The notes below the pieces were generated by a model that saw only the letters and a list, made by a program, of their open reading frames with translations, was not told the origin of the DNA and ran no database searches. Positions 4,133 through 36,506 of a stretch of DNA of 39,972 nt are shown here, piece by piece; the stretch's first letter is position 1, and the number at the start of each line of letters is the position of its first letter. Source of the DNA: an uncultured Bacilli bacterium (GTDB lineage: Bacteria; Bacillota_I; Bacilli_A; RFN20; CAG-449). The translations under genes and the position numbers were made by a program. The stretch spans positions 1 to 39,972 of the forward strand of contig CANQAG010000011.1 in the NCBI GenBank assembly GCA_947588815.1, in the 5' to 3' direction.

Positions 4133-4857
4133 CAGTTTGCCTCCCATAAAACAACCGTTATATTGTCCTTGCCACCACACTTGTTGGCTAATAAAATCAA
4201 TCTTTCACATTTTTCCTCTAAAGGTACCGATTCCTTCAATACTTTAAGAATTTTTTCTTCGCTTACTTCATTATAAAGTCCATCGGAACAAAGTAGCAAA
4301 TAGTCGAAATCAAGATCAAACACTTTCATTTGAATAGTCATGCAAGGATAAGTGCCAAGGGCATTGGTCAACACATGCTTTTTAGGATGTGTTTTCATAT
4401 CCTCTTTAGTGATTTTACCGGTCTTGTAAAGAAACTGAACGTAGGTTTCGTCATCACTGAGTTGCGTGATGTTTTCTTTAATTCCATAGATCCTTGAATC
4501 ACCGACATTGGCCATCACCAGTTTATCTTTAACAATTAACCCGGCGACGATGGTTGTCCCCATATCATGATAAAGAGGATTCTCTTCTCCCATTTTATTA
4601 ATCAGTTGATTGGCTTTTTTAATAGTATTTTTCAACCATCGATAAGCTACAAGACTATTCTTAAAAATTTTTTTCTTTTCAAATTTTTTTGAAATAAACT
4701 CTGCCGCTTTTGATGAAGCTAATTTTCCATATTGATGACCGCCCATCCCATCTAAAACTAGAAGCAAGATATCACCGGCTTCATTCTTCTTGACCAAGGC
4801 TTGATCTTCATTTACCTTACGAAGTTTTCCGACATCCGTTTTAAATACGCACTTCAT
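4132..4857 (-). CDS. stp: PP2C-family protein phosphatase
   Basis: A metal-dependent Ser/Thr phosphatase expected to reverse the action of the kinase encoded next. The 241-residue length is typical of PrpC/Stp. Motifs in order are the N-terminal DVGKLRKVNEDQ, DGMGGH (36-41), GTTIV, ANVGDSRIY, LLCSDGLYNEV and KDNITVVL. The metal-binding Asp residues (D36, the Asp of SDGL, the Asp of KDN) are all present, so it should be active. It overlaps rlmN by 4 bases and the kinase by one. Confidence 0.95.
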   Translation of the reverse strand: MKCVFKTDVGKLRKVNEDQALVKKNEAGDILLLVLDGMGGHQYGKLASSKAAEFISKKFEKKKIFKNSLVAYRWLKNTIKKANQLINKMGEENPLYHDMGTTIVAGLIVKDKLVMANVGDSRIYGIKENITQLSDDETYVQFLYKTGKITKEDMKTHPKKHVLTNALGTYPCMTIQMKVFDLDFDYLLLCSDGLYNEVSEEKILKVLKESVPLEEKCERLILLANKCGGKDNITVVLWEAN

Positions 4858-5888
4858 AGGATTTTCTCCTGTTTAGCCCGAAGTTGACCACAGGCAGCAT
4901 CGATATCGGCACCAAATTCTTTTCTAATGGTACAATTGACCCCGTTTTTTATTAAACGATCCATAAAAGCTTTAGCATTTTTGGAACGTTTAAACTCATT
5001 TTCGACAACTTCATTGTATGGAATCAAATTAACATAAGCAAACGTCGGTTTTATCAATTGGCTCAATTCATCCGCATCTTGTAAAGAATCATTAACCCCA
5101 TCCAATAGAATATATTCATATGTTACTCTCCGCGAAGCATCAGCGATATATTGCTTTACCGCTTCGATAAGAACTTTTAAAGGATAAGCACGATTGATCT
5201 TCATCAATTTTGAGCGCAAAGTATCATTAGGAGCGTGGAGTGAAATGGCTAAGTTAACCTGCAGTCCTTCTTGGCCATAGCGAATGATTTTATCGGGAAT
5301 GCCGCATGTTGAAACGGTGATATGGCGCGCTCCGATTGCAAAAGCCTTTTGATTGTTGACGATTTTTATAAAATCGATGACATTTTCATAATTATCAAAC
5401 GGCTCGCCGGTTCCCATCACCACAATGTGTGTCACTCGTTCTCCGTTTTCTTCAAAAAGAATATCATTGACACAAAGGACTTCTCCAACCATTTCGTCTA
5501 CGGTCAAATTACGAGTTTTTTTAAGTAAACCCGAAGCACAAAAAGAACAGCCCATGTTGCATCCTACCTGCGAAGACACACAAATCACGTTACCATAATT
5601 GTAACGCATCAATACTGTTTCGACTTTTGCACCGTCTCCCATTTCCAAAAGAAGTTTGATAGTGCCGTCTTTAGCATTTTGTCGCAAAAAAACTTTCGGT
5701 TTTTGTAAACAAAATTTTTGTTTTAAAACTTCCCGAAAACTTTTCGAGACATCGCTCATTTCATCAAAAGTAGTCGCCTTTTTTTCATAAATCCAAGTGA
5801 ACAATTGAGTTGCACGATATTTTTTTTGTCCTTCAAGAAGCATTAGCTCCCCGAGCTTTTCCAAAGTAAGTCCATATATATTTATCAT
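4854..5888 (-). CDS. rlmN: 23S rRNA (A2503-C2) / tRNA (A37-C2) methyltransferase
   Basis: A radical-SAM enzyme that methylates C2 of A2503 in 23S rRNA and, in some species, A37 in tRNAs. The protein is 344 residues. The radical-SAM cluster ligands are C110, C114 and C117 (CNMGCSFC). The GTGEPFDNY SAM-binding segment follows, and the C-terminal methyl-carrying Cys lies in DAACGQL (about C333). It is RlmN and not Cfr by its operon neighbours and motifs. Its ATG overlaps the preceding stop by one base (TAATG). Confidence 0.96.
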   Translation of the reverse strand: MINIYGLTLEKLGELMLLEGQKKYRATQLFTWIYEKKATTFDEMSDVSKSFREVLKQKFCLQKPKVFLRQNAKDGTIKLLLEMGDGAKVETVLMRYNYGNVICVSSQVGCNMGCSFCASGLLKKTRNLTVDEMVGEVLCVNDILFEENGERVTHIVVMGTGEPFDNYENVIDFIKIVNNQKAFAIGARHITVSTCGIPDKIIRYGQEGLQVNLAISLHAPNDTLRSKLMKINRAYPLKVLIEAVKQYIADASRRVTYEYILLDGVNDSLQDADELSQLIKPTFAYVNLIPYNEVVENEFKRSKNAKAFMDRLIKNGVNCTIRKEFGADIDAACGQLRAKQEKIL

Positions 5889-7168
5889 TATTCATTTTTT
5901 CCTGTTTTTTTAAGTTTGGCATAGTAGAAACCATCGCAAAAATATTCGTATGGGAAAATTTGTCTTTCATCTACTAGAGTGAATTCCGGATGGTTAGTCA
6001 AAAATTCTTCGATGATTTTAGTCGATTCTTTTTTATTCATCGTTTTAACCATGTAAAGAAGAATCCCTTCTTCTTTAATAAACGTCGCGGTTTCTTCCAA
6101 TAATTTTCTTTGATTATCGATAATTCCATCTAAATCTTCTCGTTTTAATGTCAACAAAATATCCGGATTTCTTCTGATTAATCCTAATTCAGAAGAAGGC
6201 GCTAGCAATAGCATTTTATCTAAACTATTAGGCCCAATATGAGTAATCAAAAGATTGGACGACGCTTCTTCAAAAGCATATATCGAACGAAGGCCGAAAC
6301 GACGAATCATGTTGCGCGTCACATTCAAATCATTGATATTTGTAAGACAAGTGTTGATTCTTCCAATATCATTCATCATCAACGCCAAATCGCAAGCCAT
6401 AAGACCTTTAGCATCACCATAAACGAACACTTCTTCACCATCTAAAGGTTCTAATTGATCGATGGCAAATTGATTGGATTCATCCATCATGAAATATTCA
6501 TTGTCTTTGAAAGCTGCATATTCAATAAGTTTTGTTTTACCACCATAACGCATCGATAGCGAGCCTAATTTTCCAAGCGTGAAATCGCTATTGTTGTTAA
6601 CGACATCGAAAACATTAGTTTTAAGGGGATTAACGCTTAAAGATAATTTTACTGCTTTTCGCGAAGAGACCAAAGATTTAAAAGTGTGCTTAATGCCAAA
6701 ATGCTTGATTAACATTCGCACAACCCATTCAGGATAAGCGTATTTTAAAGCCATTTTTTTGGCAAAGGCTTTTTCATATTTTTCCGGTATTGGAGTAGGC
6801 TCGGCTTTGATGCTTAATAAAAAATTCATGGCTTCATCGACATCAAAGTCAAGACTCTTATTTTCTTTATATGTGGTTAAAAATTCTTTTACGGCACTTT
6901 CATCGACATTTTTTACGTAGCGAAGAGCGGCCAAACTGACGATAAGGGCATCTTTAACTGTCTCGTCTTTTTCAAAGAAGTGAGAATTGATTTCCCAAAA
7001 AAGGAAATGATAGCAATTTATAACGCTTTTAAGAGTTCCTTTCAGTTTTTCGAGTTCATCGCTATCTAACGCTAAAGTGTTGATTTTTTTATTGATAACG
7101 TTAGTAAAAGATATCTCTTTGTTTTTGATAGCCTCCAAATAGGCAACTGCTTCATTTAAAAATTGCAT
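5888..7168 (-). CDS. RsmB-like protein with degenerate catalytic motifs
   Basis: The layout is that of 16S rRNA m5C967 methyltransferase RsmB: an N-terminal NusB-like helical half (about 1-140) and a C-terminal Rossmann half, 426 residues in all. Its place beside rlmN, phosphatase and kinase is the usual one for rsmB. The active site is lost: the AAPGGKT SAM loop reads YGDAKG (250-255), the DAPCSG motif reads LAPSSELG with Ser325 where catalytic Cys is expected, and the YSTC motif reads YMVKTMNKK. The family-typical RRNPDI and the final DGFYYAKLKK are kept. ATG 7168 has an AAGGAG site; an upstream ATG at 7198 would overlap the previous gene and lacks one. It is probably an rRNA-binding, non-methylating homologue. 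Confidence 0.8.
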   Translation of the reverse strand: MQFLNEAVAYLEAIKNKEISFTNVINKKINTLALDSDELEKLKGTLKSVINCYHFLFWEINSHFFEKDETVKDALIVSLAALRYVKNVDESAVKEFLTTYKENKSLDFDVDEAMNFLLSIKAEPTPIPEKYEKAFAKKMALKYAYPEWVVRMLIKHFGIKHTFKSLVSSRKAVKLSLSVNPLKTNVFDVVNNNSDFTLGKLGSLSMRYGGKTKLIEYAAFKDNEYFMMDESNQFAIDQLEPLDGEEVFVYGDAKGLMACDLALMMNDIGRINTCLTNINDLNVTRNMIRRFGLRSIYAFEEASSNLLITHIGPNSLDKMLLLAPSSELGLIRRNPDILLTLKREDLDGIIDNQRKLLEETATFIKEEGILLYMVKTMNKKESTKIIEEFLTNHPEFTLVDERQIFPYEYFCDGFYYAKLKKTGKNE

Positions 7169-7194
7169 ATTTCTCAACTCCTTATTTTGATCGA

Positions 7195-7731
7195 TCAATG
7201 GTGTTTACAATCGCATTCGCAATTGTCATCATCACAATCATGTTCACAATCGCAATTCTCATCATCGCAACAGTGATGGTGTTTATGCTCACTATGTTTG
7301 TCAAAGTTTTGAAAGATGTTTCCGGTAAAGACTTCTTGTGTTTCCCCTTCGCTTGAATCATCTTCGTCATATTCAACGATATTTTTTTCATCCATGAATC
7401 GCGGATAATCTTCATCGATGCGTTCATAGATATTTTCTTCTTTCACGTATATAAAATAACAAAGTGTGTGTACCGAAAAATCTTTACTCGCAGATAAAAC
7501 ATAATCCGCAACTGCTTTTTCATGCTGACGATAACATTCTGGAAGTTCAAATTTAATAACCAACTGATAAGTGGTTTGATCAACTCCTTGGTGAAATACT
7601 AAAGATTCCAAAGCCGATGTAATGATATCTTCGGAACGTACATGAAATAATGAAGCTAATTTGCTATGAATTTCACGATCAAATTCTCCGGCAAGATAAA
7701 TATCAATACCTTTTAACGTAACATTTATCAT
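7195..7731 (-). CDS. Small protein with His/Cys-rich metal-binding tail (DUF1904-like N-terminus?)
   Basis: A 178-residue protein of unknown role. Residues 1-100 form an alpha/beta domain that distantly recalls DUF1904 (tautomerase-like fold); this is from memory and weak. Residues 105-145 are acidic. The last 34 residues hold 8 Cys and 8 His among Asp/Glu (for instance HKHHHCC and NCECDCKHH), as in metallochaperones or metal-storage tails. The DNA for the tail is a run of imperfect repeats of the CATCATCACAATC type. The start has AAGGAG with 8-base spacing. It has its own promoter with an operator-like inverted repeat over the -35, and 26 bases separate it from the RsmB-like gene. Binding of zinc, nickel or copper is inferred. 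Confidence 0.75.
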   Translation of the reverse strand: MINVTLKGIDIYLAGEFDREIHSKLASLFHVRSEDIITSALESLVFHQGVDQTTYQLVIKFELPECYRQHEKAVADYVLSASKDFSVHTLCYFIYVKEENIYERIDEDYPRFMDEKNIVEYDEDDSSEGETQEVFTGNIFQNFDKHSEHKHHHCCDDENCDCEHDCDDDNCECDCKHH

Positions 7732-7750
7732 GGTATATCTCCTTGTTTTT

Positions 7751-7779
7751 ATTATCGTGCAATTTATCTTATTTTACAA
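7751..7779 (-). promoter_or_regulatory. Promoter for the His/Cys-tail gene
   Basis: The -35 TTGTAA (7779-7774), 17-base spacer and -10 GATAAT (7756-7751) lie in the 64-base gap after priA. The predicted start is about 15 bases above the Shine-Dalgarno site. It would let the lower half of the operon be expressed apart from gmk-priA. Confidence 0.6.
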
Positions 7780-7788
7780 GTAAAATAA
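7769..7788. promoter_or_regulatory. Operator-like inverted repeat over the -35 box
   Basis: Perfect 9-bp arms TTATTTTAC (7769-7777) and GTAAAATAA (7780-7788) are separated by 2 bases and cover the -35 of the promoter at 7751-7779. Size and symmetry suit a dimeric repressor. There is no T tail, so a terminator is less likely. A metal-responsive (Fur/Zur-like) regulator is possible because of the downstream product, but the sequence is not a textbook box. Confidence 0.5.
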
Positions 7789-7795
7789 ATCATCA

Positions 7796-9994
7796 CTAGT
7801 AGTCATCGTATGGATCGATGTTAATTGATAAAGTACAATCGCTTCTTTTAGAAATTATCTCGTTCAATTCTTCAAGAACTGTTTTAACTTCTTTCTCTAT
7901 TTTATACTTCAATAAAAGGTTTCGTCGATAACGTCCGTTCAAGCACAAAATAAAAGGTTCGCTTGGTCCCACAATCAAAACTTTTTTATTTTCAAACTTA
8001 ACTTCCAAAAAGGATATTACATCATAAACGCGTTCCATCAGAATATCTTCTTTGACTGCGCTTAGCGTCAAAAGCGTCAAATATGTAAAAGGCGGGTCTT
8101 GGTGCAATTTTCTACGGATCATTTCTTCATTAAAAAATCTCTCATAATCTTGTGTACTTGAAGCATAAATCGCATAATTAGTTGGATTATTAGTTTGAAT
8201 TATCGCTTCTCCCACTTTATCTTTACGCCCCGCTCTTCCGATAGCTTGAGTAATTAGAGCAAAAGTCTTTTCACCTGCTCGATAAGATGGTAATGCAAGC
8301 GTCAAATCTGCCAAAACGACACCTACCAAAGTGACATTTTCAAAGTCGTGTCCTTTGGCAATCATTTGGGTACCGATCAAAATATCGATTTTTTGTTCGC
8401 TGAATTCATCAAGAATTCTTTTAATGTTATTTTTTAATCTTCCGACATCACTATCAAGCCGCGCACATTTTGCATCGGGAAATAAACGTGCCACTTCTTT
8501 TTCGACACGTTCGGTTCCAAATCCGGTTTTAGAAAGATATGGCGAATGACACTTAGGACATTCTTCAATCATCTCTTTTTCATATCCGCAATGATGACAT
8601 TTTAAAATCTGTTCTTGATGATGATAGGTTAATGGGATATCGCATTCGGGACATTTAATTACATGTCCGCATTTTCGACAAGAGATATAGGTAAAATAAC
8701 CGCGGCGATTTACCAAAAGGATAACCTGCTCTTTTTTTTGCAAGCGATCTTTGATTTTTTCTCGAAGAATTTTAGAAAAAATCACCGATTCACGATCGAT
8801 ATTTTTAGAATTCACCATGTCGACAATTTCAGTGTGCGGTAAATCTTGATTGTTGATTCTCCGTGTTAAACGAAGATGGTGATAAATTCCTCGCATTGCT
8901 CGAACTCTAGTTTCTAAAGATGGCGTTGCTGAACCAAACACAACCTTACAATTACAGATTTCACTGCGCATTAACGAAACTTTGTTTACATGATAAAATG
9001 GAGCGTTATCTTGTTTGTATGTTTCAGAATGTTCTTCATCGATAATGATAAGTCCTAAATTTTTAAGAGGAGCAAAAATCGCACTTCTAGCTCCGATCAC
9101 TAAGTTAACTTCTCCTTTAGCAATCCGACGATATTCGTCATATTTTTCACCATCGCTTAATTCGCTATGTAAAACGGCCAAATTTTTAAATCGCGCTTGA
9201 AACTGACGTATTGTTTTCGCAGTTAACGCAATCTCCGGAACAAGCATCAAAACGCTTTGGCCACGATTTAAAACCTCTTTGGCGACATGTAAATAAACTT
9301 CGGTTTTTCCGGATCCTGTAACTCCCTCAAGAAGAAACACTTTATCGTTAGATTCTAAAATTTGTTTTGCTGCTTCGCTTTGTTCTTCATTCAATTTTTT
9401 CTCTTCTTCATATTCGATATCTTCTAATTGGAATCGAGTAATTTCTTGTTTAAAAACTCGCACTCTTTTTTTTTCAATCAAACCTTTCAAAGCCGTAGTT
9501 TTTATCGTGTTTTTCTTGATTGGTTTATTCAAAGATTTCAACTCTAGAAGCAAAGAGGTTTGTTTAGGAGTAAGGTCAAGCGTAGAATCATTTATAATTT
9601 CAACCATCAATTCATAAGCGATTTTTGGTTTACTCAAAGAAGAAATTTTAGGTTTAAGGGAAGGCGGTAACATCGTTTGATAAACGGAAATCAAACTACA
9701 TAAATAATATGCGGAAATTTTATTAGCTAATTCTAACAATTCGTCATTAAACAATGGTTTTTCATCAATGACACTGATTATTTCTTTAACTTCAAATCCT
9801 ACTTTTCTTTTATATTCTTCAAGATTTTCTGAAACTTTATAAACCCTATTGACAAAACCGATGATTCTTTTGTTCGCAAAAGGTACTAAAACTCGCACTC
9901 CTTTAAAAATCGATAAATCACCCAAATAGGCATAAGAAAAAGGACGATTCAAACTTGCTGTTCCATATTCGATTAAAACTTCTAAGATCAACAA
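7796..9994 (-). CDS. priA: Primosomal replication restart helicase PriA
   Basis: A 3'-5' superfamily-2 helicase that reloads the replisome at collapsed forks. The 732-residue protein has the N-terminal 3'-DNA-binding domain (1-105), a winged-helix linker, Walker A GVTGSGKT (about 224-231), DEEH, GSATPSLETR and a zinc-binding insert with eight Cys in CxxC pairs (CRKCGH through CPKCHSPY), then the C-terminal helicase lobe with IGRAGRKD. There is no ATG near the family start: the frame opens at TTG 9994 (or TTG 9991), preceded by a run of nine G on the coding strand (10011-10003). Any upstream extension meets TAA at 10018-10016, so a rare start codon is required unless the tract is misread. Confidence 0.94.
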   Translation of the reverse strand: MLILEVLIEYGTASLNRPFSYAYLGDLSIFKGVRVLVPFANKRIIGFVNRVYKVSENLEEYKRKVGFEVKEIISVIDEKPLFNDELLELANKISAYYLCSLISVYQTMLPPSLKPKISSLSKPKIAYELMVEIINDSTLDLTPKQTSLLLELKSLNKPIKKNTIKTTALKGLIEKKRVRVFKQEITRFQLEDIEYEEEKKLNEEQSEAAKQILESNDKVFLLEGVTGSGKTEVYLHVAKEVLNRGQSVLMLVPEIALTAKTIRQFQARFKNLAVLHSELSDGEKYDEYRRIAKGEVNLVIGARSAIFAPLKNLGLIIIDEEHSETYKQDNAPFYHVNKVSLMRSEICNCKVVFGSATPSLETRVRAMRGIYHHLRLTRRINNQDLPHTEIVDMVNSKNIDRESVIFSKILREKIKDRLQKKEQVILLVNRRGYFTYISCRKCGHVIKCPECDIPLTYHHQEQILKCHHCGYEKEMIEECPKCHSPYLSKTGFGTERVEKEVARLFPDAKCARLDSDVGRLKNNIKRILDEFSEQKIDILIGTQMIAKGHDFENVTLVGVVLADLTLALPSYRAGEKTFALITQAIGRAGRKDKVGEAIIQTNNPTNYAIYASSTQDYERFFNEEMIRRKLHQDPPFTYLTLLTLSAVKEDILMERVYDVISFLEVKFENKKVLIVGPSEPFILCLNGRYRRNLLLKYKIEKEVKTVLEELNEIISKRSDCTLSINIDPYDDY

Positions 9995-23349: not shown

Positions 23350-24324
23350 ATGTGTACAGCCATAACATATGCAACTAAAGATCATTATTTCGGTCGTAAC
23401 CTCGATTTAGAATATTCCTATTTTGAAACGGTGACCATCACTCCGAGAAATTATGGTTTTAATTTCCGTAACATGGGAAAAATGAATTCTCATTATGCGA
23501 TGATCGGCATGGCTTTCGTCTGCGACAATTATCCGCTTTATTACGATGCCACAAACGAAAAAGGATTGTCGATGGCCGGTTTAAATTTCCCAAAAAATGC
23601 TTATTATCCAAAACCGAAAGAAGGAAAAGACAACATCGCACCTTTTGAATTTATCCCATGGATTTTAGGACAATGTGCCACAATCAAAGAAGCGAAAGCA
23701 CTCTTACAAAAAATCAACATTGCCAATATCGATTTTTCAGAAAAATTAAAAGCTTCACCGCTCCATTGGATTATCGCCGATCGTGACAGTTCCATCATCG
23801 TCGAACCATTAAAAGACGGCCTTAAAATTTACGATAACCCAGTTGGAGTTCTCACCAACAATCCACCTTTTGATTATCAGCTATTTAATCTCAACAATTA
23901 TATGTATTTAACGAAGGAAGCTCCACAAAATACTTTTTCCAAAGATTTAAATCTTGAAACATATAGTCGCGGTATGGGTGGATTAGGTTTGCCTGGCGAT
24001 CTTTCATCTGCCTCACGCTTTGTAAAAGCTACTTTCACCAAGATGAATTCATTAAGTGGCACTAGCGAATCTGAAAGTATCAGTCAATTTTTCCATATTC
24101 TTTCCTCAGTTGCTCAACAACGCGGTTGTGTTCATATGGGTAACGAACAATATGAAATAACCATTTACAGTTCTTGTTGCAACGTCGAAAAAGGAATCTA
24201 TTACTACACCACTTACGAAAATAGTCAAATCACCGCGGTTGATATGCACAAAGAAAATCTTGATAGTGAATCAATAATCTCATATCAATTATTGACCGGA
24301 CAAAATATCAAAATGCAAAACTAG
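23350..24324 (+). CDS. bsh: Choloylglycine (bile salt) hydrolase
   Basis: An Ntn-hydrolase that frees glycine or taurine from conjugated bile salts. The 324-residue length is exact for the family. After removal of Met1, Cys2 is the nucleophile. Other catalytic residues are R16, D19, N79 (in MAGLNFP), N171 (LTNNPPFDYQ) and R223 (SSASRFVKATF). The YSRGMGGLGLPGDLSSASRF segment is highly characteristic of true bile salt hydrolases, against penicillin V acylases. There is no signal peptide, so it is cytosolic. AGAAGGAG precedes the ATG. Its presence points to a gut habitat. Confidence 0.95.
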   Translation: MCTAITYATKDHYFGRNLDLEYSYFETVTITPRNYGFNFRNMGKMNSHYAMIGMAFVCDNYPLYYDATNEKGLSMAGLNFPKNAYYPKPKEGKDNIAPFEFIPWILGQCATIKEAKALLQKINIANIDFSEKLKASPLHWIIADRDSSIIVEPLKDGLKIYDNPVGVLTNNPPFDYQLFNLNNYMYLTKEAPQNTFSKDLNLETYSRGMGGLGLPGDLSSASRFVKATFTKMNSLSGTSESESISQFFHILSSVAQQRGCVHMGNEQYEITIYSSCCNVEKGIYYYTTYENSQITAVDMHKENLDSESIISYQLLTGQNIKMQN

Positions 24325-28937: not shown

Positions 28938-30646
28938 GCTTAATTAAAATTTAAACTTCAAAAATAAAGATATTCAAAAATAAACTTCAAAAACGATAGA
29001 ATGAAAAAGTATCTGTTGCCACCAAGGAGGAAAAAAATATGGTGCAAATCGTAAGCAAGAAGATACATGAAAGAAATAAACAATTAACAAAAGATGATAG
29101 GTTTGAATTAGTAAAATGTTTGGAAAGAGAATTTAATTTAACGGACACAGCAAAATATTTACATTGTTCAATTTCAACAGTCAAAAGAGAAATAGATCGG
29201 AACAAAACATTAAAGCTAAATATAAAAGCGAAAAATAAATGTGGTTTAAAAGCAACATGTAAAAAGCATAATGTATGTGGCAATTCGCGATGTACCCATA
29301 TTTGTAAAGACTGTAAAGTACCAAAAGTGAATTGCAATGATTACTGTAAAGAATTTACACTATTTCCAAATTGCAAGAAGCTAAAGCATTTAAGCGGTGT
29401 TTGTAATGGGTGTAATGAATATACCATTTGCAAATTAAACAAATTTATTTATTCTGCAGTCGAAGCACAGATGAAACATCAAAGCAATCAAACAAATGCT
29501 CATAAAGGAGCAAGGATAAATGAAGAAGAAGCCAATGTTTTCGCAGATTTTTTAAAGCCATTGATAACTAAAAATTTATCGTTAGAAACTATCAAATCAC
29601 AATATCCAAACATATTCATATACTCCATTCAAACAGTTTACAATTGGATAGATAATGGAGTTCTTCCACTTAATAATCTGATGTTAGTTAGAAAAGTAAG
29701 ATATACCAAAAGAAAGCCATTAAAAACCGATGAGCGAAACATCAATCGAGCTTATTTAGAAAATCGTTACTATGATGATTTTCTAACATACATCACAAAT
29801 CATCCAATGGATGAAGTTGTGGAAATGGATACAATTGAAGGACCTAGGCACAAGTCTTTTATCATGACATTGCTATTTAGACGATGCAATTTTATGTTAG
29901 CTTTCAAAATAAAAGATCAAACATCCAATTCGATTATTGAGATATTTGATCATATCAAAAATTCTGTTGGAAATAAGATTTTCAGTCAGTATTTCAAAGT
30001 TATTTTAACAGATAGAGGCAAGGAATTTAGTAACCCTATTGCGATCGAAATAGATAAAAATACTAACGAAAAATTGATTTCTGTATTCTATTGTGATTCA
30101 AGACAAAGTCAACAAAAAGGCAAAATCGAGAAGAATCATGAAGAATTAAGAAAGATATTTCCTAAAGGATTTGATTTTGACAATATTAATCAAGATCAAC
30201 TTAATTTAGCTCTATGTCATGTGAATTCATATCCACGAAAATTGTTTAATTATAAGACACCATTCAATTTGTTTAAACCTTATGCTGATGATTTATTACT
30301 AATGCTTAATAACTCAAAAGCAATAGATTTTAATCATTTAAATTTGACCCCATCATTAATCAAAATTAAATAATTTTTTTGAATTTTTATAGGCAACAGA
30401 TACCTCTTAAAACAATTCGATATTTTTGCAGTTAACATTGGAATTACTTGAATTATTGCTGTTAACTTGTTTTTGTGTGCCTATTTTTGGTGCCTTACAA
30501 ATCTCATTATAATCTCTTTATGAATTTTTTCAATTTTTATGATTGATTTGTTCTTTTGGTTCCTTTAATTTTGACCTTATTTTTGAAGTTAATTTGTTTG
30601 TCTTTTTAAGTCCTTATTATTTTTGAAGTTTAAATTTTAATTAAGC
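28938..30646 (+). mobile_element. Complete IS30-family insertion sequence, 1709 bp
   Basis: Perfect 30-bp inverted terminal repeats (28938-28967 and 30617-30646; outer end GCTTAATTAAAATTTAAACT) enclose one transposase gene. A 13-bp direct repeat flanks it. Inside lie a 12-bp inverted pair GTATCTGTTGCC (29009-29020) / GGCAACAGATAC (30392-30403) and a second copy of the TTATTTTTGAAGTT subterminal motif at 30577-30590, 40 bp from that in the right repeat. The 273-base right end has no gene. It sits 107 bp upstream of the lipoprotein start. Unbroken gene and identical repeats suggest a recent arrival. Confidence 0.93.
29039..30373 (+). CDS. IS30-family transposase
   Basis: A DDE transposase of 444 residues. 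The N-terminal helix-turn-helix (LVKCLEREFNLTDTAKYLHCSISTVKREI) binds the ends. A Cys-rich block follows (residues 62-140, 14 or more Cys, as CKKHNVCGNSRC and CKDCKVPKVNC), probably zinc-binding. The catalytic core has Asp in VVEMDTIEGP, Asp in VILTDRGKEFS and Glu in KGKIEKNHEELRK. AAGGAGG lies 8 bases before the ATG. All key residues are present, so it is probably active. Confidence 0.95.
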   Translation: MVQIVSKKIHERNKQLTKDDRFELVKCLEREFNLTDTAKYLHCSISTVKREIDRNKTLKLNIKAKNKCGLKATCKKHNVCGNSRCTHICKDCKVPKVNCNDYCKEFTLFPNCKKLKHLSGVCNGCNEYTICKLNKFIYSAVEAQMKHQSNQTNAHKGARINEEEANVFADFLKPLITKNLSLETIKSQYPNIFIYSIQTVYNWIDNGVLPLNNLMLVRKVRYTKRKPLKTDERNINRAYLENRYYDDFLTYITNHPMDEVVEMDTIEGPRHKSFIMTLLFRRCNFMLAFKIKDQTSNSIIEIFDHIKNSVGNKIFSQYFKVILTDRGKEFSNPIAIEIDKNTNEKLISVFYCDSRQSQQKGKIEKNHEELRKIFPKGFDFDNINQDQLNLALCHVNSYPRKLFNYKTPFNLFKPYADDLLLMLNNSKAIDFNHLNLTPSLIKIK

Positions 30647-30985: not shown

Positions 30986-32281
30986 TTATTTTTTTGCTAA
31001 ATAAATTTGAAATCCGATAGAAAAAACAAACTCATTCATCATAAAATGTTCAAATATTTTTTTATAATTTTGATTATACCACTCATATTCTTCAGCAAAT
31101 GTCGCGTTATTCGGTTCTTTTTCATGTAGTACTTCAATATCATCTAAAACAAATTTACAATAGAGATTAAATAAACTTTCTTTATCATCATCGCTTAAGC
31201 CTATACTAGAAAAGCCTTGTTTTTCTAAAGAGATATTTTTATAACCTGCGCGAACTAAATTAGTATAAATTTGACGACCGTTTTTTCTTTCGCCGGCAAT
31301 TTTATCCTTTTCACAAATTTTAAATATTCTTTCAAAATCTCCATCATCATCCGGATAAGCAAAGTTTAAGCCATCATCAATATCTTTGATGATAAGTATT
31401 CCATTTTGAGATAAAACGCGCCGCAATATTCTTAATAATTTATACTGAGATTTTAAATGTAATAACACCATTGAAATATGAATGATATCGAATTTTTCAA
31501 TTTGCAGTTCTTCCATGATATCTTCTAGTGAATCATAAAAATCATCTTTCTCTAGGTCAACTTCAAAAAAGTGTCCAAAAGGATGCTTTTGTTTTGCGTC
31601 TTCGAGAATTTCACTATTCTTATCTATCCCTACAAGAGTGTAATCCTTAGATCCAAATCGGTTTGTGATAACATCCCCATTTCCACATCCAACATCGAGA
31701 ACAGTCGGTAAATTAAAAGACTTAAAGACTTTTTCGTAAACATCTTGATCAAACTTTTTAACTAATTTATTTTGAATTTCAAGACGATCTTTTTCGCTTG
31801 AATCCATAAAATACATACTCACGGTACGATCTTTCTTTGTATTTTCTTTATCATTAAAAATAGTGCTGTTGTTTTTAACGATTTCTTTCGCTATTTTGTC
31901 AGATGAATTAATGTCTTCTGGAATAATAAAATTAATTCTACGAATGTAATACATGATTTCATCAAAATCTCTTCCATCAATATTAATAGCATCAATACAA
32001 ACAGGTTGAATTACAATATCACCATTAGAATATTTTTTATGACTATACGCCATTTCAATTTCATTTAAAACATGTTCGGATTTCGCGGATTCATTAGATA
32101 GACATAGTAAAAAAACTTTGGCATTTTCTATCGCATCGCAAATTGCTCTAGCGTATCGCCCTACGACATCACGCGGAGCATAAAAACATTTAGCTCCCAT
32201 ACTTTCAAGCGATGAAACAAGGGCTTCTACTTTTTCTTTATCCGCGCTAGAGTAACTTACAAAAAAATCTATATTTTTCAT
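30986..32281 (-). CDS. TIR domain fused to a SAM-dependent methyltransferase
   Basis: A 431-residue protein. Residues 1-130 are a TIR domain: FFVSYSSADKEKVEALV, FYAPRDV, FLLCLSNESAKSEHVLNEIEMA, with Glu74 in the position of the catalytic Glu of NAD-cleaving TIR proteins. A charged linker (150-175) follows. Residues 175-330 are a class I methyltransferase: LDVGCGNGDV (motif I), GIDKNSEIL with the acidic ribose-binding residue, FDIIHISMVLLHL, and LIIKDID. The C-terminal 100 residues are helical with no match. There is no membrane segment. The start at 32281 has a weak AAGGA. Such a pairing is not one I know; a defence or stress role is inferred from the TIR domain and location in an accessory region. 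Confidence 0.85.
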   Translation of the reverse strand: MKNIDFFVSYSSADKEKVEALVSSLESMGAKCFYAPRDVVGRYARAICDAIENAKVFLLCLSNESAKSEHVLNEIEMAYSHKKYSNGDIVIQPVCIDAINIDGRDFDEIMYYIRRINFIIPEDINSSDKIAKEIVKNNSTIFNDKENTKKDRTVSMYFMDSSEKDRLEIQNKLVKKFDQDVYEKVFKSFNLPTVLDVGCGNGDVITNRFGSKDYTLVGIDKNSEILEDAKQKHPFGHFFEVDLEKDDFYDSLEDIMEELQIEKFDIIHISMVLLHLKSQYKLLRILRRVLSQNGILIIKDIDDGLNFAYPDDDGDFERIFKICEKDKIAGERKNGRQIYTNLVRAGYKNISLEKQGFSSIGLSDDDKESLFNLYCKFVLDDIEVLHEKEPNNATFAEEYEWYNQNYKKIFEHFMMNEFVFSIGFQIYLAKK

Positions 32282-35147: not shown

Positions 35148-36506
35148 ATGAAGAAAATTAAATTAATTTTATTATTTGCTTTATCTTTTATTACTGGATG
35201 CGCTAATAATAGTGAACCCGTGACTTCTTCGTTACTTTCGCCTATTTCTGATTCTACAAATTCTCAAGATTTATCCAGCAATGTTGAATCCACAAATATG
35301 GACACACTGCAAAGCTCTTCGGATATACAAAGTTCTAGTTATATTTCAAGTTCTTCTGATACATCAAGCTCTTTTAATAGCACTCCTATTCCTCAAGACA
35401 CTAAAGTAATGGTATATTACACAAATAGCGAACGTTGGAAAAATGTATATGCCTATATGTGGAATTATAAAAGCCAAGTTCAAAAAGTTGCTTGGCCCGG
35501 AACTAAACTTACTGTTAGTGGTACGTCAGGTTATGGCGAGAATCAATATTCGATTGAAGTAGATTATAGTCAATATGATCGCATAATTTTTAACGACAAC
35601 GCCGGCAACCAAACGAAAGATTTAATAGTTGGACCTGCATCAAGCGGTTATTATGGGAAGGATGGTATTTTTACAATGAATAGTACAAATTATGGAAAAG
35701 TCGAGTATTTTAATTTAACTGATAGTAAAAATTTACAATACACAGCTAAAAAAAGCAAAAAAATCTCGGTTTACACACCAAGTACTTACACGAGTAATAA
35801 GAAATATGGTGTTTTATACATGTTCGATAGTCAAAATTTATATGCTAACGCAACCGGCGCAGCAAAATCATCCGATAGCTATGGCTCCTGGGCAGTAGAT
35901 GTCGCCGTTTCTAATCTGGTTCAAAAAGGAGAAGACGGATTAATTATCGTCGCGATCGATAACTCCGATGGATATCGTGACTCTGAACTTACCATGAGTC
36001 AATCATTCGGTAATCTTACTAACCTTGCTGACAATCAAAGTTTTTATAATGGCAAATTAGATGAATTGGGCAACTTTATGAAAGAAACCCTAATTCCTTA
36101 TATCAACGAAAATTATTCAGTAGACACCAGAAGAGAAAATACCGGAATTGCCGGATCCTCTTCCGGTGGTTTAGCTGCTTATTATTTGGGACTTCGGGAT
36201 AATGACATTTATGGATACATCGGTGCTTTCTCACCGGCGAATGCTCTTTTTGAATCATCGGCGTGGAAACGTTATTATCAAAGTAAAAATTTCAGTTCCG
36301 GACATCCGCAAGTTTATGTTTATTGTGGTAACGGCGATGATTTAGAAAAGAAACTTATTACTGCCTCAAAACAAATTGCCGTTAATTTAAAATCTTTAGG
36401 ATTCAATCAAGATAGCATTGTTGAAAATTATGACAATAACGGCTCTCATAATGAAAGTTATTGGCGCATAGCATTTATAGATTTTTTAAGTAAAATGGCA
36501 AAGTAG
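35148..36506 (+). CDS. Lipoprotein with CBM26-like module and esterase domain
   Basis: A 452-residue protein. The signal ends in FITGC (Cys18). A Ser-rich linker (23-80) leads to a starch-binding-module-26-like domain (about 86-165) with VYYTNSERWKNVYAYMW and the aromatic residues AWPGTKL. Residues 195-452 are an esterase-D/Fes alpha-beta hydrolase, with nucleophile Ser338 in GSSSGG, an acidic residue near D397 and His434 in GSHNESYW. It would sit outside the cell, bind starch-like glucan and cleave an ester. No sugar transporter or amylase is adjacent. GAGGTG precedes the ATG. The domain identities are strong; the substrate is not. Confidence 0.85.
   Translation: MKKIKLILLFALSFITGCANNSEPVTSSLLSPISDSTNSQDLSSNVESTNMDTLQSSSDIQSSSYISSSSDTSSSFNSTPIPQDTKVMVYYTNSERWKNVYAYMWNYKSQVQKVAWPGTKLTVSGTSGYGENQYSIEVDYSQYDRIIFNDNAGNQTKDLIVGPASSGYYGKDGIFTMNSTNYGKVEYFNLTDSKNLQYTAKKSKKISVYTPSTYTSNKKYGVLYMFDSQNLYANATGAAKSSDSYGSWAVDVAVSNLVQKGEDGLIIVAIDNSDGYRDSELTMSQSFGNLTNLADNQSFYNGKLDELGNFMKETLIPYINENYSVDTRRENTGIAGSSSGGLAAYYLGLRDNDIYGYIGAFSPANALFESSAWKRYYQSKNFSSGHPQVYVYCGNGDDLEKKLITASKQIAVNLKSLGFNQDSIVENYDNNGSHNESYWRIAFIDFLSKMAK

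Follow-up and report, generated by a model that had tools for sequence, protein, structure and literature searches.

TIR domains are NAD-cleaving enzyme domains frequent in immunity. Thoeris pairs a TIR protein, ThsB, with an effector, ThsA, of the SIR2-SLOG or macro/TM type. For most architectures of bacterial TIR proteins, the way in which infection is detected and the readers of the products have yet to be established. In phages, proteins with a RyR (ryanodine receptor) domain bind 2'cADPR and 3'cADPR and cleave them via H75, W78, H100 and D117, ligand residues that are common across the RyR (PF02026) family (2026 preprint, PMC13232231). Another group with which the present locus can be compared is that of the Swarozyc/DUF4062 TIR-like NADases (PMC13174449). 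On the methyltransferase side, class I enzymes of the 3mgg type, TmtA/GtmA, YcgJ and LahSB are all separate enzymes. The methyltransferase fold can also serve without methyl transfer, as in the cyclase SpnF.

The stretch of DNA analysed here (the window, 39,972 nucleotides) comes from an uncultured Bacilli bacterium (genome G000, 1.33 Mb in 37 contigs) and carries the only copy in that genome of a gene for a TIR domain fused to a methyltransferase fold (TIR-MT). The likeness to Thoeris lies in a TIR domain with the catalytic Glu, in a separate candidate protein for an ADP-ribose-type ligand and in probable mobility; one candidate partner moreover has a C-terminus that reads as SLOG-like. The fusion of the TIR domain to a methyltransferase fold and the RyR-family nature of the candidate receptors set the two apart. 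PADLOC ThsB models matched the TIR residues of the protein only, and weakly (E=5e-7 at best), with no ThsB match over the whole protein, and the Pfam ThsB_TIR model scored below its cut-off. Among the neighbours examined there was no ThsA-type SIR2-SLOG or macro/TM partner, the partners being RyR-family and GNAT proteins. By analogy, TIR-MT may work like Thoeris while falling outside the Thoeris models. No description of TIR-MT proteins was found in the literature searched, the coverage of which was incomplete, so that the architecture or a coupling of RyR and TIR proteins may already be published; priority for both is uncertain.

Architecture and conserved residues

The gene (P0001) spans positions 30986..32281 on the minus strand and encodes 431 residues in a single open frame with an ATG start; the plus strand of this interval contains many stops. 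A preliminary description had reported one chain of this length, without giving the strand, and its TIR and methyltransferase parts were both recovered by Pfam. Residues 6–98 match TIR_2 (E=7.7e-17, 62.4 bits against a curated cut-off of 28) and residues 193–302 match Methyltransf_31 (E=3.4e-16), and the cut-offs of Methyltransf_11, 12, 23 and 25 are likewise exceeded. An AlphaFold2 model, computed from an alignment of 32 members, has a mean pLDDT of 89.4 and consists of two compact domains. From the TIR_2 match and the model, the TIR domain was assigned to residues 1–125 (31907..32281, minus). It is followed by a linker with helices (residues 126–152; 31826..31906, minus), which includes a disordered joint at residues 144–151 (pLDDT <50).

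The TIR half is a well-predicted flavodoxin-like fold. Glu74 (codon 32060..32062, minus), the putative catalytic residue, lies inside helix 69–84 after the third strand, the place of the catalytic Glu in TIR NADases such as SARM1 and the bacterial TIRs. The assignment of this residue in the preliminary description is supported, and it is retained in all 56 members in which the TIR region is sequenced. The catalytic Glu supports the suggestion, also made there, of a NAD-processing TIR: an active NAD-processing enzyme is probable, with a confidence above that of the whole signalling chain proposed below.

Residues 153–431 (30989..31825, minus) adopt the fold of class I methyltransferases, extended by long helices at the C-terminus. 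The best solved relative is 3mgg, an archaeal methyltransferase from Methanosarcina mazei, and the best 50 Foldseek matches listed for the model are all to this half. P0001 shares the fold and the SAM motif with 3mgg, TmtA/GtmA, YcgJ and LahSB; it differs from them in its fusion to a TIR domain, its longer helical C-terminus and, in one clade of relatives, the lack of a SAM site. Motif I, LDVGCGNGD, stands where it had been described, at residues 195–203 (31673..31699, minus). Further conserved positions are the segment D300-I-D302-D303 (31373..31384, minus) and the pair R332 and R336 (31274..31288, minus), of which the latter is R or K in the family. R166, D302 and D303 are retained in 57 of 57 members, and R332 in every member that reaches that position.

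The 57 distinct members differ in their SAM site. It is retained in 43, P0001 included; in the other 14, motif I is lost or rebuilt. These 14 form one clade in the methyltransferase tree (support 100/98), and the multiple independent losses that were first suspected are rejected in favour of a single one. In this clade the site was dismantled in a coordinated way, with changes in the G-loop (G198/G202) and in the acidic residue after strand 2 (D220), Gln170 replaced by Glu in 12/14 and His275 by Asp in 14/14, while R166, D302, D303 and R332 persist. One member, at locus L122, was scored as active by one residue only and groups with this clade. For a member of the clade no NCBIfam model matched; the methyltransferase fold was still predicted (pLDDT 86.7), again with 3mgg as the best match. 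SpnF was matched as well, and it differs in being a biosynthetic enzyme, not a sensor.

The two halves of the protein have not always travelled together. The methyltransferase domains of L120/L121 are 47–49% identical to that of L114, and the TIR domains only 22%; the TIR domains of L120/L121 are in turn 44% identical to that of the SAM-less L096. Judged by these identities, the TIR half is exchanged between members and the methyltransferase half kept. Because Glu74 is constant while the SAM site is lost in one clade, and because TIR halves are exchanged, the TIR domain appears to be the shared output of the family, methyl transfer appears dispensable, and methylation is not required of the methyltransferase fold. 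As the SAM site is gone from an entire clade in which the catalytic Glu of the TIR domain persists, sensing is better ascribed to the methyltransferase fold, which more likely senses than methylates. This agrees with the small-molecule sensor envisaged in the preliminary description, and makes a sensor role of this half well motivated.

Distribution and surroundings

The family occurs mostly in gut Bacillota. The full-length architecture was found again, at 22–70% identity, in dozens of independent genomes, and an assembly fusion, which had been considered, is therefore rejected. In the order, a relative covering much of the protein was present in 23 of 279 genomes, as tallied by hand from the match table. 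The sister genus g2 carries two paralogues in each of the 3/3 genomes sampled, and a few further relatives exist elsewhere in the class. About 30 loci are in named genomes, among them Clostridia, Christensenellaceae, an Oscillospiraceae, an Olsenella (Actinomycetota) and a Bacteroidota MAG. A phage or plasmid gene is rejected as an explanation, since the viral contigs searched held no member and the phages and plasmids searched gave single-domain matches only, without a full-length relative. A relative of the methyltransferase half without a TIR domain, broken across two frames, was seen at L097 (7567-8369, genome G548).

The distribution among the genomes of the order and class is patchy. The closest relative (70% identity) is in G042, a genome from a different family within the order, while for RsmF, which the window also encodes, the identity to G042 is only 38%. 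From this disparity, the gene probably moves horizontally, in line with the mobile-style distribution anticipated earlier.

The TIR-MT gene is alone locally. An insertion sequence (28938..30646, plus), with perfect 30-nt terminal inverted repeats and a transposase-like gene at 29039-30373, terminates 340 bp beyond the stop codon of TIR-MT. The flanks of the element have TTTTATTCTTT in common, offset by a single base, which may be a target duplication. As the surroundings of relatives vary from locus to locus, the element is most likely an incidental neighbour. That TIR-MT is its cargo is unsupported, since the inverted repeats bound the element and leave the gene 340 bp outside. The preliminary description had taken the position "alone next to an IS" as a defence context: an IS does adjoin the gene, but the informative context is provided by the RyR-family and GNAT genes beside relatives and by RyR genes on another contig of G000. 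Elsewhere in the window, a gene of the choloylglycine hydrolase family (bile salt hydrolase type; 23350-24324) fits a gut bacterium, and a lipoprotein-like esterase with a starch-binding CBM26 module is encoded at 35148-36506.

The neighbours of relatives include RyR-family and GNAT genes and, in places, Cas9-like (read from sequence), DUF4062-STAND, TIR-LRR and AbiEii-like AAA genes; many loci have ordinary metabolic neighbours. In 12 of the 14 SAM-less members, the gene directly preceding TIR-MT, in the same orientation, encodes a GNAT acetyltransferase; of the 43 other members, 3 have a related gene on the same strand no more than 1.5 kb away (Fisher p=5e-8, to be taken as a guide only, as related sequences are not independent). 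At L073 (1477-10797), one cluster holds a pair of TIR-MT genes and another TIR gene along with a GNAT and a DUF4062-STAND gene. This cluster is the point of likeness to the Swarozyc/DUF4062 proteins, from which P0001 differs in being a TIR_2 protein without a DUF4062 or STAND domain. The gene directly downstream of TIR-MT at L067 (9178-9717) and L102 (11263-11802) reads like luxS; it could recycle the product of a methyltransferase or be there by chance.

RyR-family genes linked to TIR-MT

Eight loci (L074, L082, L083, L085, L090, L092, L093 and L114) have the TIR-MT gene in a tight operon, with a gap of 12 bp or less, with a gene for a membrane protein of about 620–960 residues. This protein has N-terminal hydrophobic segments, a Rossmann-like stretch with IGFGKxN and a C-terminal EHxRW motif, and is termed here the membrane RyR-like protein. 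Among the 279 genomes of the order, its gene is present in 19 of 23 TIR-MT carriers and in 16 of 256 non-carriers (p=2e-16; p=8e-6 by genus). Restriction genes as a whole are somewhat more frequent in TIR-MT carriers. A control family, the HsdM-like N6_Mtase, is present in 12/23 carriers and 76/256 other genomes (p=0.03), and this association being only weak, defence-rich genomes are rejected as the sole cause of the co-occurrence.

The membrane family is likely related to RyR domains, judging from its alignment to the HD-RyR family described below (hhalign probability 92% across the EHxRW region), from the EHxRW motif common to the two and from one protein of L114 that is hit by the membrane profile (E=2e-12) and, slightly below the cut-off, by Pfam RyR (E=2e-5). 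Typical members have no Pfam RyR match, and a PDB profile search with the family found nothing. The full ligand tetrad of the phage proteins is absent from most members and present in a few.

The cluster at L114 (1253-11322) contains, in order, a membrane RyR-like gene, TIR-MT with an 11 bp overlap, a second membrane RyR gene, an HD-RyR gene and a gene for a TIR protein with BspA-type LRR_5 repeats. The counterparts in the genome of the window are on contig 6 (L138, 4394-8894), where a membrane RyR-like gene (6705-8894, minus) and an HD-RyR-SLOG-like gene (4394-6655, plus) are convergent and about 50 bp apart. Their products are 75% and 84% identical to the membrane and HD-RyR proteins of L114, respectively. 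In the HD-RyR protein the RyR part is confirmed by Pfam (PF02026, 32.8–36.6 bits against a cut-off of 27.4), the HD and SLOG-like parts being read from sequence. G042 also has all three genes, in separate places; the match to its membrane gene spans one stop codon in the table, yet a 737-residue frame was found. The pair on contig 6 is likely to be the partners of the window gene, which does not share an operon with them.

H503, W506, H533 and D550 are invariant in the HD-RyR family, with the same 17-residue spacing from H to D as in the phage RyR proteins. Aligned by eye, they appear to correspond one to one to H75, W78, H100 and D117. The HD-RyR protein of G000 thus resembles the phage RyDEP/RyR proteins (PF02026/R12) in its cADPR-binding residues; the G000 proteins differ in being chromosomal and larger, with HD/SLOG-like or membrane parts, and in being linked to a TIR enzyme and not opposing one. 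Because phage RyR domains bind cADPR and the HD-RyR family keeps these residues, the RyR proteins are credible readers of a TIR product.

Membrane RyR-like genes are also found without TIR-MT. At L157, L158, L159 and L160 they adjoin NLR-like (AAA/NB-ARC/TPR) or TIR_2-like genes, and for that reason the protein is suggested to be a general receptor for the products of the TIR family. Distant membrane RyR-like genes are clustered at L168, L170, L171, L172 and L173, most with small ClpP-like proteins, as read from sequence.

A signalling reading and its alternatives

TIR-MT is proposed to act as both enzyme and sensor in a Thoeris-like system of immune signalling in which an ADP-ribose-type signal is read by RyR proteins, a reading to which a probability of about one half is assigned. 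When the cell is infected or meets a metabolic cue, the side of the methyltransferase-fold domain that formerly took the substrate would be engaged by a ligand or partner, and the engaged fold would turn on the TIR domain, which would cleave NAD+ and produce the signal. The readers would be the membrane protein, with its Rossmann-like and RyR-like parts, and the soluble HD-RyR-SLOG-like protein, encoded in cis in relatives and in trans in G000. They would disturb the membrane or nucleotide pools, and the phage would be stopped. We infer the NADase activity, the signal, the sensing by the methyltransferase fold and the anti-phage role; the nature of the signal and the action at the membrane are held with less confidence than the chain as a whole. 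The RyR-family signalling partner is newly suggested here. It is proposed more tentatively that the family represents a new type of TIR signalling system. Its ligand sensor would be a methyltransferase fold, SAM-free in one clade and there assisted by GNAT helpers, and RyR-like membrane receptor-effectors would respond to a NAD-derived signal, so that the system would be the bacterial equivalent of cADPR action on RyR channels.

Both the window gene and the relative at L013, 70% identical to it, are solitary locally, and four of the 23 carrier genomes are without a membrane RyR-like gene. These observations would suit a stand-alone abortive-infection effector, in which the methyltransferase fold senses, the TIR domain depletes NAD+ and the cell dies, with no need of a second gene and with the RyR link secondary. 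The residue four before Glu74 is consistent with this too: it is His70 in P0001 and its subfamily and often Trp in other members, at a position that is presumably important for cyclisation in AbTir. The presence of the membrane RyR-like gene in 19 of 23 carriers and the tight operons at eight loci speak against such self-sufficiency, which is considered possible but doubtful.

The methyltransferase could instead be enzymatically active in the clade of the window gene, where it would methylate the NAD-derived product, nicotinamide (blocking NAD salvage), or a phage or host target, the SAM-less clade delegating the task to its GNAT partners. The SAM site kept in 43 members, P0001 among them, and the GNAT genes that accompany its loss in 12/14 argue for this; so does the luxS-like gene beside two members, as LuxS recycles the product of SAM. 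Yet one clade drops SAM binding and retains the remaining protein with Glu74, and no shared substrate is known, so that this explanation is regarded as unlikely. The preliminary description had similarly offered modification of the NAD product or of a target, which cannot hold for the clade that lacks the SAM site and may still hold for that of the window gene. A role outside immunity, in which gut bacteria use the same TIR and RyR parts to signal metabolic or cell state, would fit the two paralogues in 3/3 genomes of g2 and the many metabolic neighbours, but is improbable given the patchy distribution, the horizontal spread and the places linked to Cas9-like, DUF4062-STAND, TIR-LRR and AbiEii-like AAA genes.

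Returning to the signalling system with RyR readers, the family provides a natural pair for testing: the fusion exists in a form that has the SAM site and in one that lacks it, with the catalytic Glu of the TIR domain in both. A single genome of a gut bacterium contains all candidate components, which can be cloned as a set. The link between TIR enzymes and RyR-family membrane proteins bears on a possible bacterial immune counterpart of cADPR-RyR signalling in animals.
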